Shown here: positions 44,198 through 52,604 of the stretch, piece after piece
Layout: every line of letters begins with the position of its first letter
Position numbering within the stretch: position 1 is the first letter of the stretch
Origin: Brachynemurus nebulosus
Lineage: Eukaryota; Arthropoda; Insecta; Neuroptera; Myrmeleontidae
Direction of reading: 5' to 3'
NCBI GenBank assembly: GCA_035578155.1
Contig: JAPWDM010000015.1
Location: 1,909,001-1,973,000 of the forward strand
Length of the DNA stretch: 64,000 nt
The notes under the pieces: generated by a model
Databases searched by the model: none
Told to the model about the DNA's origin: nothing
Seen by the model: the letters and a program-made list of their open reading frames with translations, nothing else
Position numbers and translations under genes: made by a program

Positions 44198-44747
44198 AGT
44201 AGGTATGAGGGCACCTGGCGATGAAAATTTTGTATGCAAATGAGCTAATTAATTATTCAAATTTTTGGCAATTGCCCCGGGCCAAATTTTGGGGGTTTTT
44301 CACCTCTAATTTTGGTTTTGACCGATTTTGGTGGTTTTTCAAGTTTTTGGCAGTTGGCCCGTTGACCTTGAGGTCATTAACCTTTGGTTTTTACAATTGG
44401 CCCTATGGACCCCAATTTTGGTATTTTTTGACTTTGTAATTTTGGTGGTTATTCAAATTTTTGGAAATGACCCACCCACGCCTAATTTTGATGATTACAT
44501 CATCATCATTTTCAAATTTTGCTGATATATGGTCCAACGACGATTGAATTTTTATGTGTCGTGTAAATTGCCTATATTTTTCAGTAATGGTGTTCAGATT
44601 AAATAAAATGCTGTCAGTTGATGGACCCGATCTCGGGTCTTTTTGCTTACGACGCGGTGATGTTAACCGTTGCTCTACGGCACGTGTTAACTATGTATGC
44701 ATTAAATGTGGTAGGTATTCTACATACGAGCGCATGATAGTTGGTTA
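44198..44747 (+). repeat. Left terminal inverted repeat
   Basis: 550 bp, starts AGTAGGTATGAGGGCACC, roughly 95% identical to the right repeat. It is built of recurring AATTTTGG-containing phrases (about nine times), and its inner part carries a tRNA-like sequence on the minus strand (about 44613-44682). Confidence 0.9.
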
Positions 44748-46721
44748 CTAATTATAAAGACTACTAATTATAAATTGATATATGTATGAATGATTTCATA
44801 TTATATTGTTTTCTTACTCACACAGAGCAAAATGTGACTTTTTAAAAAATTTCCATGGCAATTTGGTCATATGTAGGAAATAAATTTTCCAATTGCATTT
44901 ATGTAACTGAACAATTAATAAAATTATTTTCATGTATAAAAATTTAGTGGTTTATTGTTGTAAAATTATTTGCATGTATAGTCTATTGTTATAAAATATA
45001 AAAGCAGTTCAAAATTTAAATATTTTAAATATACTTTACAAAAGAATATTACTATTAATATAAGAAAACACATTTTTTCAAAAATTATTTTTATTAAAGT
45101 TATATACGTATATATAACAATAATGACAGCACATAAGGATAGCGTTTTGCAATACACAATATTCAGTTACACTGTCAACTAAAATCCGACAACAATTGAA
45201 ATTCAATTCAGTACATATTATATATTATACAGCTATAGATCCAATCGTCGTAGTATTCACAACAGCAATACTAGCTACCTTTCACCATGCGAAGTGTATA
45301 TAATTTCCAGTATGCTTAATAAATGATTATGTTGTCTTGTTGCACTTTTTAGCGAATTTCGAAAACTCGAAATTCAGCTATTACGGTAGGTCTCATGCCG
45401 CAATCTGAGTCCGGGACTATGGCAGAAATATGTTTTGAGGTCCCTAGAATACGAAAATGATATTCACTAAAGTTTATATATATATATATATATATATATA
45501 TATATATATATATATATATATATATATATATATATAGATGGATTTAGCTTATATGTTGTATGAGGTCGGTCAGAGTCCTGGGATCTTCTAAGCGCCAAGA
45601 ATAAACTAACCGACAGATTTTGAAAATTTTTTCGCTGTTAGAGAGCTAAACTATTTTAGATAGTTATAGATTACGTTATGTAAGGTCCGTCAAAGCCCAT
45701 GGGACCCAGAAGTGTCAAAAATAAAATAACTGACCGATTTTGAAAATTTTTTCACTATTGCAGAGGTAAACTATTTTAGATAAGTATAGTATGTTATCTG
45801 AGATCCACAACTGTCCTGCGGATGCAAATGCGGCATAGAAAACTACACAACGGGTTTTAAAAATAGTTTTACTGTTAGAAAGATAAAATATCCTATATTA
45901 TATAGGATAGAAATAAGCTACCAAACCGATTCTCAATATTTTCTCATTGCTAGAGAATTAACTTATTTTAGGTCGATAGCACTATGCTGTACAAAGTCCG
46001 TTCGGGGTCTTGGGTCCCAAATATACCAAAAATAAATTACCTAACCGATTTTGAAAATTCTTTTACTCTTAGAAAGCTAAACTAGTTTAGATGGGTATAT
46101 GCGCCAAGCACCTTATGTGAAAAAGCGCCAAAAATTAACTACTCAACTGATTTTGAAAATCTTTTCACTCTTAGAAAGCTGAATTATTTTAAATGGATAC
46201 AGGTCTTAGATGAGATCCGCCAGTGCCCAATACTTCGAAATTCGCTATGTTATGCAGATGTTGCGACAGGGGTATTTTTTATTATTCAATGTCAACATAA
46301 CACCGGTACGTAATGATGCTTATGTTTTTTTGCAATAAGTTAAACATATACATATGAATAATTCTTATTTAATAGAATATTTTTAATTACAGGTTTGCCC
46401 TTTAACTAAATTCCAAGTGTAACAGTAATTATTTTTAATTTCAGCGTTGAATTTTTCTTAATTTGAATCAAAAATAAAAATTATGTATATCAGTATTTTA
46501 ATAGATATATTTATATATTAGTACAAATTAATGTTGTTTATAAATAACACATGTACAAAAATTTTCTACTTAATTATATAAATTCATGTAAATTACATAC
46601 TTTTTTTATTTATAATAAATTTATAACGTATAAAACTGTTTCTTAACAAGAATATGCACGTATATGATATTGTTTTTTATTTAATGTTCGTGCGTCCTAG
46701 CAGTAATTAATTTTGATTTTA
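44748..46721. other. Non-coding left part of the element, with repeats
   Basis: No gene. A (TA)n tract lies at 45475-45536. From 45605 to about 46240 there are six degenerate copies of a 100-125-bp unit (ACCGATTTTGAAAATTTTTT, then AGCTAAACTATTTTAGAT). 45365-45450 is an interspersed repeat also found inverted at 35823-35915. Confidence 0.6.
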
Positions 46722-46952
46722 ATGTTTAATTTACAGCTAATTTTAAAATTTTTAAACTGCGTTATTTTAAAGTGCAATTTATGCGGCAAGGTATTTAATA
46801 GACGATTTAATTATAAACAACATATGCGTGGCATTCACAACATTGAAGATGCAAGTATCAACCACAACAATGAAAGTAAACGCAATAATAAGTACGAATT
46901 CAACAATAGATACAAAAATGGAAGCGAACCCAACAACGGAAATGAACCCTAA
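46722..46952 (+). CDS. Single C2H2 zinc-finger ORF
   Basis: 76 codons from the ATG at 46722. A TTTAATTTACAG right after it could be a splice acceptor, so this may be the last exon of a spliced gene. It holds one classic finger: CNLCGKVFNRRFNYKQHMRG then IH, that is C-x2-C-x12-H-x4-H. The remainder is asparagine-rich, with repeated NNxN and SEPNNGNEP at the end. The second finger ORF at 49068 has the same C-x2-C-x12-H-x4-H spacing and a similar polar tail, so the two may be paralogues. Likely nucleic-acid binding; the role in the element is unknown. Confidence 0.55.
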   Translation: MFNLQLILKFLNCVILKCNLCGKVFNRRFNYKQHMRGIHNIEDASINHNNESKRNNKYEFNNRYKNGSEPNNGNEP

Positions 46953-47145
46953 AATGGACACAGCTTCCACATAATAATAATAAAAATTATCTATAAACTG
47001 TGTTTTTGTATTACTTGTTAATAAATTTTTCCGAAAAATAGATTTATTTTATTGAAATATATCCTTTATGAAATACGTGGTTTTTGGTATTATTTAATTA
47101 GTCAATGGTAAAGCATTGAACGATTCATTTCTGTTAAATTTAATC

Positions 47146-51079: not shown

Positions 51080-51122
51080 CTGTTAAAGTGGATTTTACAG
51101 AATATTGAAAAAGGTACCGCCA

Positions 51123-51248
51123 ATGGAACAGCCCTTGTTTAGTTGGGATAGCAGACCATACGTCGATCCAAGGCCAGCAATGAACTTACAGGATTATTTG
51201 GCTGTGTACAAAATATTAAAAGAAAATTTCAATATTCAGCATACATAA
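51123..51248 (+). CDS. 41-codon ORF, unknown
   Basis: MEQPLFSWDSRPYVDPRPAM followed by NLQDYLAVYKILKENFNIQ. Proline/aromatic-rich start and an amphipathic end. No family recognised; listed because its composition looks protein-like and it lies in series with the other ORFs of the element. Confidence 0.35.
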   Translation: MEQPLFSWDSRPYVDPRPAMNLQDYLAVYKILKENFNIQHT

Positions 51249-52055
51249 TTTTTGATACAGTAGTTGTATATGTAACAATTGTTAATAAAATATTTTTAAA
51301 ACTACATGAATTTTTTTTAATTGTTAAAAACGGTTCCATCAAATAATGTAAATTTAGCATGGCACAATTACAGGTCTGAAATTTATTTTATAACTAAAAC
51401 TGTGCATAAGTAATCGAAAAAATAAACATTATTGTTGGAAAAAAGATATATGTATAAATAAAAGAAATATATATGTATGTAATTTTTAATTTGCATTTAT
51501 TACATACATAATTGTTATCATTATTACAATATGAAGAAATATTATAATATTGAAATAAATTTATTTTTTAAATTCAATTGAATACGAATTTCCAACCGGA
51601 CCGTTACATAAATCTTTAATTTGTTGCAAAAATTATAACAACAACAATACAGTAATGTTTAAATTATTTCTTGTTTGTATTGCATCGTGAAAGTCAAATA
51701 AAACAACATAGTAGATATAAGGTAATATAGTGAATGTACCGTTTGTATGGTGATGGATACCATGGCTACTATTAACTAGATCACCGCAGTATATAGTTAG
51801 TCAATGTCGTTGAATATCTTAGAGTAACCGGACGTATTGTAATTGAATTGCAATTGTTGTTAGAGTTTGATTATCAATAAAAACTGACTGTTTAAGTACT
51901 ATAATAAAATAAGTAGTATCACTTGCAGTAAATTGTCTAAAAACAACATATTATGAAAACATTCATGCATACATATATGAATTTATAAATAGATGGAAAA
52001 ATTTTCTATAATCAGGTGAAAAATTTTCTATTAGTACACTCACATATCACATGAT
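51249..52055. other. Non-coding right part of the element
   Basis: AT-rich, no gene recognised between the last ORF and the right terminal repeat. Confidence 0.5.
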
Positions 52056-52604
52056 CAATCAACTATCATGCGCTCGTGTGTAGAATACCTACCACATTTA
52101 ATGCACACATAGTTAACACGTCCCGTAGAGCAACGGTTAACATCACCGCGTCGTAAGCAAAAAGACCCGAGATCGAGTCCATCAACTGAACGCATTTTAT
52201 TTAATCTGAACACCATTACTGAAAAATATAGGCAATTTACACGACACATAAAAATTCAATCGTCGTCGGACCATATATCACCAAAATTTGAAAATGATGA
52301 TGATGTAATCATCAAAATTAGGCGTGGGTGGGTCATTTCCAAAAATTTGAATAACCACCAAAATTACAAAGTCAAAAAATACCAAAATTGGGGTCCATAG
52401 GGCCAATTGTAAAAACCAAAGGTCAATGACCTCAGGGTCAACGGGCCAACTGCCAAAACTTGAAAAGCCACCAAAATCGGTCAAAACCAAAATTAGAGGT
52501 CAAAAACCCCCAAAATTTGGCCCGGGCCAATTGCCAAAAATTTGAATAATTAATTAGCTCATTTGCATACAAAATTCTCATCGTCAGGTGCCCCCATACC
52601 TACT
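52056..52604 (-). repeat. Right terminal inverted repeat
   Basis: 549 bp, the reverse complement of 44198-44747 with scattered substitutions. Ends CATACCTACT at 52604. Confidence 0.9.
52119..52190 (+). tRNA. tRNA-Thr(CGT)-like sequence in the terminal repeat
   Basis: Aligned without gaps from GTTA onward to the tRNA-like unit at 20291, it has CGT at the anticodon position (52152-52154) with T before and AA after. The B box is degenerate (GATCGAGTCC) and the anticodon stem no longer pairs. A copy is present in the left terminal repeat on the other strand (44613-44682). A tRNA-derived relic, not a working tRNA. Confidence 0.35.

Follow-up and report, generated by a model that had tools for sequence, protein, structure and literature searches.

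A non-autonomous Polinton family with mirror-symmetric copies in the genome of Brachynemurus nebulosus

Introduction

A 64,000-bp stretch of the genome of the neuropteran Brachynemurus nebulosus (assembly GCA_035578155.1, contig JAPWDM010000015.1, positions 1,909,001 to 1,973,000; referred to in full as the window) contains an 8.4-kb element with long inverted repeats at window positions 44198-52604. A preliminary description, made from the sequence alone, had likened it to the Polintons or Mavericks and had proposed that it either lost its replication and capsid genes or represents a new lineage with a protease as cargo. The locus raises the question of how an element with the ends of a virus-like transposon, and with a different set of genes between them, came to be there and to multiply. 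Non-autonomous transposons are a generally known kind of element, and we propose, with a probability that we put at roughly 85%, that the window element arose by integration of one member of a non-autonomous family of Polintons (Mavericks), a family that would use helper functions in trans and would sometimes copy back.

Results

Termini and autonomous relatives

The inverted repeats of about 550 bp are recovered independently of the earlier claim: the arms at 44197-44746 and 52057-52605 are 96.7% identical over 550 bp, and in a local alignment of the two window arms the similarity ends after about 548 bp. The sequences AGTAGGTATG and CATACCTACT stand at the element termini (AGT...ACT), in agreement with the AG...CT ends described, and the flanks AGGGTT and AGGGCT form the 6-bp duplication with one mismatch that had been noted. 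Both flanks were read for 11 repeat pairs, ten of which have a perfect 6-bp duplication, the window copy being the sole exception. In a copy on C121, 294 of 305 bases are identical to window positions 43926-44230 (host flank makes up 272 of these bases, and element the other 33), and the end corresponding to AGGGTT in the window reads AGGGCT. Since the C121 copy has this sequence, the mismatch is probably a point difference in the window; the C121 copy itself probably goes back to the insertion seen in the window, either as a duplicate or as an allele of it, with the caveat that the flank similarity ends at 43926 despite the alignment of 1.5 kb of C121 flank.

A search of the genome (960 Mb in 138 contigs) with the left repeat at E <= 0.001, in which 40 of 160 candidates were scored, gives 43 matches, which can be grouped by position into 15 pairs with lengths of about 6 to 28 kb. 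Pieces of 12 further pairs were read, including four of 15.7-16.2 kb (C116, C122, C1 and C77), and the longer relatives that the preliminary description had proposed to look for are indeed present, with the same ends and with genes for PolB, an rve integrase, a packaging ATPase and a double-jelly-roll (DJR) capsid. A Pfam scan of the C122 copy identifies PolB (DNA_pol_B_2, PF03175, 1.7e-45) in a frame of 1376 amino acids (aa), the integrase (rve 3.3e-14, plus chromo at 0.0011, below the cut-off), the ATPase (Pox_A32, 2.3e-7), a PLA2 protein (Phospholip_A2_4, 6.2e-15) and the capsid (DJR-like, 1.1e-116). Of the core genes anticipated, the adenain-type protease alone is left at a weak match below the curated cut-off (Peptidase_C48, PF02902, E 0.0074), and a 243-aa protein without informative match is named penton candidate by position alone.

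All four ~16-kb copies have open frames for the ATPase, the PLA2 protein, the protease and the penton candidate, and likewise for the capsid (413 aa in C116, 415 aa in the other three); PolB is a single open frame in all but C1, where it is split, and the integrase is open in all but C116, where it is shorter. Gene comparisons, from which the split C1 PolB, the short C116 integrase and the 413-aa C116 capsid were left out, give 98.6-99.9% identity between copies. The summed ratio of the proportions of non-synonymous and synonymous differences (pN/pS) is 0.27 for PolB (three copies), 0.24 for the ATPase (four), 0.30 for the PLA2 protein (four), 0.19 for the integrase (four, one of them from C49) and 0.07 for the capsid (three); for the penton candidate it is undefined, with 0 synonymous and 1-3 non-synonymous differences per pair. 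This level of identity, together with pN/pS values of 0.07-0.30, argues that the ~16-kb copies with the window element's ends are recently active Polintons. Relatives of their capsid number 330 proteins at E <= 0.001, and among the 120 listed those with names come from insects (Hermetia, Chrysoperla, Eupeodes, Aphidius, Prorops and ants), the best named ones among the matches listed (Hermetia, Chrysoperla and Eupeodes) having 54-57% identity. Against PDB the capsid gives nothing but weak matches to designed propeller proteins, and a PHROGs search with six autonomous proteins returned nothing informative.

Genome-wide, the capsid profile PF21738 yields 1648 first-look candidates, of which 126 were scored; each of these reaches 410-414 bits in a stop-free open frame, while the capsid of the Polintons with the window ends scores 390 bits; these scores suggest one very large, recent Polinton family distinct from that with the window ends. 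PolB yields 1288 first-look candidates, with many open frames among the 75 scored.

Gene content of the window element

Among the frames scanned and the Pfam matches of 44198-52604 there is no PolB, integrase, ATPase, protease or capsid, and when the autonomous proteins are compared with the window element by tblastn (E <= 0.01), just the end of a 395-aa protein and the tail of the PLA2 protein match. Same-ended relatives carry the core genes and ten of 11 copies have the 6-bp duplication; the element is therefore derived from a Polinton and is devoid of genes for replication and for a capsid, as had been supposed, but its interior is not a leftover of the autonomous copies read. DNA-level matches to the autonomous pieces are confined to the repeats and to short subterminal stretches, at roughly 70-94% identity (Table 1), which leaves most of the 7.3-kb interior unmatched. 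That interior is common to four other complete copies, L040 (C1), L041 (C45), L042 (C92) and L043 (C116), at an identity of mostly 94-99% (90% at the left end of L043). The window element belongs to a non-autonomous family that has a small set of genes of its own, and five complete copies of this family were read. A block of repetitive DNA at 45349-46276 is missing from L043 and from a relative, L060, is replaced by about 0.26 kb in L041 and is largely kept in the C121 copy (L040 and L042 have no left end); it is probably an insertion.

The family might be what is left of another, autonomous lineage of Polintons, one that bore the metalloproteinase described below and whose PolB and capsid genes have since been deleted in the copies found, a possibility that we take seriously, with the odds leaning against it. 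DNA of the window metalloproteinase matches 53 pieces of the genome at about 35 places (grouped manually; 40 of 54 candidates scored), about eight of which are in, or up to about 6 kb from, the listed terminal repeats and the rest elsewhere; L060 has the same left end and a truncated metalloproteinase start followed by other frames; and the PolB and capsid candidates are very numerous and mostly unread. However, none of the copies read combines the window interior with PolB or a capsid gene. Internal deletion is a usual origin of non-autonomous elements, and the ends and short subterminal stretches common to the autonomous copies would fit a derivation from the autonomous Polintons read by simple internal deletion, with the metalloproteinase acquired later; but the unmatched interior largely refutes such a deletion for the copies read, the virion-like proteins of the element are just distant relatives of the autonomous ones, and we consider this origin improbable.

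L060 itself (C59:2136900-2146800) continues beyond its truncated metalloproteinase start into frames like those of long interspersed elements (RNase_H 2.8e-15). Its small frames 3869-4318 and 4422-4721 are without a Pfam match above the cut-off, and there is no AGTAGGTATG-type end in the next 9.9 kb.

Mirror-symmetric copies

The same end occurs twice in four copies, namely L040 (C1:155067082), L041 (C45:863539), L042 (C92:280747) and a copy on C49 (C49:21502). L040 has two right ends, its arms identical at 1871 of 1871 positions around a unique 3.7-kb centre; L041 has two left ends, with 36 mismatches in about 1510 positions (97%) and a unique 3.2-kb centre; and L042 consists of two right halves, identical at 3079 of 3080 positions, with a 0.47-kb centre. 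The C49 copy has the left end twice; each of its arms contains PolB and integrase, and the arms are 99.9% identical over at least 7489 bp and enclose a centre of about 1.9 kb. All four have perfect 6-bp duplications. Ends were typed at 14 of the 15 pairs (C58:10118969-10146634 is left out), and the symmetric copies are four of these 14, namely three of five non-autonomous and one of nine autonomous copies; no such symmetry is seen in the window copy or in L043. The junctions, read manually, have overlaps of about 2 bp in L040 and about 3 bp in L042, and that of L041 lies in AT-rich DNA. We regard the symmetric copies as probably integrated copy-back products, and infer template switching by a protein-primed polymerase on a linear molecule, prior to integration, as the simplest account.

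Palindromic chimaeras are a known long-read artefact, the C49 case lies on a small contig of 57.9 kb, and L042 directly adjoins another Polinton-like end, all of which would be in keeping with assembly artefacts or with post-insertion recombination between neighbouring copies. Against these origins stand the perfect duplications in four of four cases and the unique centre between the arms, and two old copies that recombined would not be expected to yield arms identical at 1871 of 1871 positions together with matching duplications; we consider either origin very improbable.

Proteins with a GLYLKPYR tail

The non-autonomous family has proteins that recall those of its presumed helpers. The motif GxGLYLKPYR forms the C-terminal end of two window-element proteins, the product of the zinc-finger gene (GQGLYLKPYRKR) and a 77-aa protein (GEGLYLKPYRRY), and GLYLKPYR recurs close to the C-terminus of the PLA2 protein of the autonomous copies. 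The 77-aa protein matches (7e-8) an autonomous open reading frame of 58-60 aa immediately upstream of the capsid gene; its frame and one of about 110 aa are open in all five complete copies. In L042 the zinc-finger frame and a 295-aa frame are joined as a single 378-aa frame with a Pfam C2H2 match (1.2e-5), and this gene is broken in the window, L040, L041 and L043, by a different lesion in each. The zinc finger listed earlier as cargo is therefore present, but it is fused to a virion-like Polinton protein, and because of this fusion the gene is probably an element gene, not captured cargo.

The 295-aa frame shares words with 1430 candidates in a protein search, none of them at E <= 0.001, and has no match in PDB at E <= 1; in a pattern scan of IMG/VR 32 stretches fit this protein and none was confirmed. 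A protein search with the 77-aa protein gave no candidate.

The metalloproteinase pseudogene

A matrix metalloproteinase with a hemopexin domain had been described as cargo of the element. Its domain remains are there (Pfam: PG_binding_1 prodomain 6.3e-5, hemopexin 1.2e-4, and a catalytic domain in two pieces in different frames at 2.7e-12 and 2.8e-9), but the gene is not a working one: it has in-frame stops, a frameshift and Gln replacing the catalytic Glu, and a test of the window copy for an open frame with a cysteine switch and HExGHxxGxxH was negative. It is present in three of the five complete copies (the window, L040 and L043, where it additionally carries an insertion) and absent in L041 and L042. 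Four further copies of its lineage (L063-L066) were read, and the copies fall into subfamilies A and B, which differ at 8-13% of nucleotides. One stop is common to all five A copies (window, L040, L043, L063 and L064) and absent in B (L065 and L066). Gln follows the first zinc-binding His (LLHQ) in all seven (A 5/5, B 2/2), where the divergent relatives L067 and L068 have Glu (LSHE); this call rests on a manual reading of the upstream frame, the automatic DNA alignment placing A in another frame there. Gln for Glu at the catalytic position is the classical inactive form of metalloproteinases, and the loss of activity probably predates the split of A and B. As the stop and the Gln are common to the copies, the gene was probably a pseudogene before the A copies spread, a passenger and not a tool; lesions of the zinc-finger gene differ among copies, whereas those of the metalloproteinase are common to them.

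The genome has 150 matches to Peptidase_M10 (150 of 158 candidates scored), about 50 of which, by manual count, are near the full profile, in one frame, stop-free and intronless, on many contigs. L067, of which 458 aa were read from a 530-aa open frame, is intronless and combines an open frame with a signal-peptide-like start, a PRCGV cysteine switch and HEIGHALGLRH, which fits HExGHxxGxxH; its Pfam M10 match is 2.9e-33, its best PDB match is interstitial collagenase 1su3 (2.8e-40), and its C-terminal part aligns with the hemopexin regions of solved structures, with no Pfam hemopexin match at E <= 0.01. Its relative L068 has a stop after 348 aa. Among the 75 of 1288 PolB candidates scored, about five listed ones pair with a metalloproteinase within about 20 kb, and no metalloproteinase lies within about 20 kb of a listed capsid among the 126 of 1648 scored (both by eye; the repeats cluster on certain contigs), numbers from which no association would follow. 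The open metalloproteinase domains, examples being C1:83041116, C41:12546502 and C118:464053, represent an expansion across contigs, and several of them have equal scores.

It is scarcely credible that the element profits from a functional metalloproteinase as cargo, which might for instance open the extracellular matrix and let particles spread: L067 retains the motifs just listed, and protease cargo is reported in nematode Mavericks (PMC10680173), yet the gene is dead in the window family, by the stop in A and the Gln in A and B, and no intact relative is shown to lie in a Polinton.

Discussion

We infer from these comparisons mobilisation in trans, a copy-back origin of the symmetric copies and a possible role of the tail in packaging. 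Autonomous relatives would supply polymerase, integrase and perhaps capsid; the element would replicate as linear, protein-primed DNA by way of the ~550-bp repeats that it has in common with the autonomous copies, and the rve integrase would insert it with a 6-bp staggered cut. Through the GLYLKPYR tail of the zinc-finger and 77-aa proteins, the element, or the proteins that it encodes, may enter the particles of a helper. From time to time the polymerase would switch strand and copy back; the products would be mirror-symmetric molecules whose two ends are identical, and these would integrate as normal ones do.

Several points weigh against this proposal. The similarity between the 295-aa frame and the autonomous 395-aa protein is short (YWxNPNxLV) and has a phmmer E of 0.02, its tblastn E of 7e-5 referring to a database that consists of the window element alone. 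The tail motif is short, and the pattern GxxGLYLKPY occurs at nine loci in IMG/VR, five of them with the motif in an open stretch. For the 378-aa gene, the ratio of non-synonymous to synonymous substitution rates (dN/dS) is scattered from 0.33 to 4.2 over ten pairs with 1-8 synonymous changes, values from which neither constraint nor lack of constraint would follow. Not every autonomous copy is intact (PolB open in 3/4, integrase open in 3/4), and the element could stem from some other autonomous lineage, one that has its genes but escaped detection. As to the IMG/VR loci themselves, they were judged by eye to be chance occurrences, none of them relative-like.

The window element resembles the insect type of Polinton (Maverick, polintovirus) in its AG...CT ends, long inverted repeats and 6-bp duplication, but whereas the full relatives here carry PolB, rve integrase, ATPase, DJR capsid and PLA2 protein, it is without the core genes and has a different interior gene set. 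Adenovirus symmetric recombinants, or copy-back defective genomes, illustrate how linear protein-primed replication gives rise to mirror-image molecules with one end twice; the copies described here differ in being chromosomally integrated members of the Polintons, with 6-bp duplications. Virophages and satellite viruses have small genomes reliant on a larger relative, and possibly virion-associated proteins of their own, whereas in the window element no capsid genes of its own were found, and what would speak for dependence on a helper is its gene content, the ends in common with the autonomous copies and the GLYLKPYR tail. A further step, that the element is a true, virophage-like Polinton satellite with selected virion-targeted proteins, a helper's polymerase, integrase and capsid, and copy-back genomes left in the chromosome, is a tentative idea that on the sequences at hand we think rather unlikely.

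The linear, protein-primed, virus-like replication of animal Polintons is mostly inferred from gene content, and integrated mirror-symmetric copies with near-identical arms and 6-bp duplications would be physical traces of it, which one could count and date in whatever assembly is available. Through a non-autonomous family that has virion-tailed proteins of its own, animal Polintons would gain a satellite level, and if the element were a true satellite, one could read in the chromosome how a protein-primed polymerase forms defective genomes. With its numerous PolB and capsid candidates and many open frames, this genome is a good system in which to study these processes.

The Polinton core genes are already known (PMC4028283), and nematode Mavericks are reported to carry a wosp protease and a krma kinase as cargo (PMC10680173). 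Both these and the present family are virus-like transposons with an acquired protease gene, which here is a matrix metalloproteinase, a pseudogene, inside a non-autonomous element. Our search of the Polinton literature for metalloproteinase, palindromes and defective interfering gave nothing on these points beyond PMC10680173, as far as the available parts of the papers go. No title or abstract start among the matches listed mentions mirror-symmetric Polinton copies, which we do not claim to be unpublished. A virion-tailed non-autonomous family and integrated symmetric copies are new as far as the literature was searched.

Features of the element and of the surrounding window

Table 1. Positions of features in and around the element, in window coordinates.
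Feature	Position	Strand	Remark
Left target-site duplication	44192..44197		AGGGTT (C121 copy: AGGGCT)
Left terminal inverted repeat	44198..44745	+	begins AGTAGGTATG
Left subterminal stretch common to autonomous copies	45101..45300 (to ~45346)		about 70-82% identity
Repetitive DNA, ~0.93 kb, (TA)n and ~120-bp repeats	45349..46276		comparison of copies
Second left subterminal stretch common to autonomous copies	46286..46416 (from ~46275)		77-82% identity
C2H2 zinc-finger-like open stretch (CNLCGKVFNRRFNYKQHMRGIH)	46707..46949	+	by eye
Pseudogene of a matrix metalloproteinase, with a start like a signal peptide (by eye) and remains of the prodomain, the catalytic domain and hemopexin	47098..48434	+	Pfam, copy comparison
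Gene with zinc finger, GTPxLxxL, YWxNPNxLV and GQGLYLKPYRKR (frames 49068-49325 and 49273-50184)	49068..50184	+	frameshifted in window
77-aa protein, C-terminal GEGLYLKPYRRY	50283..50513	+	homologous to small autonomous Polinton ORF
~110-aa open frame	50624..50956	+	no Pfam match at E <= 1
Right subterminal stretch common to autonomous copies, overlapping the repeat	52007..52097		91-93% identity
Right terminal inverted repeat	52057..52604	-	finishes CATACCTACT
Right target-site duplication	52605..52610		AGGGCT

Other mobile-element-like sequences and repeats are found to the left of this one. A nearly intact errantivirus/gypsy-like provirus occupies 36312-43839, with 300-bp direct repeats at 36312 and 43540 that are 99% identical; its gag-like region lies at 41790-43121 (Retrotrans_gag 3.8e-6), and two further frames, named by eye, are pol-like (38956-41844, 962 aa) and env-like (36680-38293, 537 aa). 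A 362-aa open frame at 25349-26437 resembles, by eye, a transposase of the Tc1/mariner type, and direct repeats with a spacing of 357 bp and 96-100% identity extend over 19766-20563.

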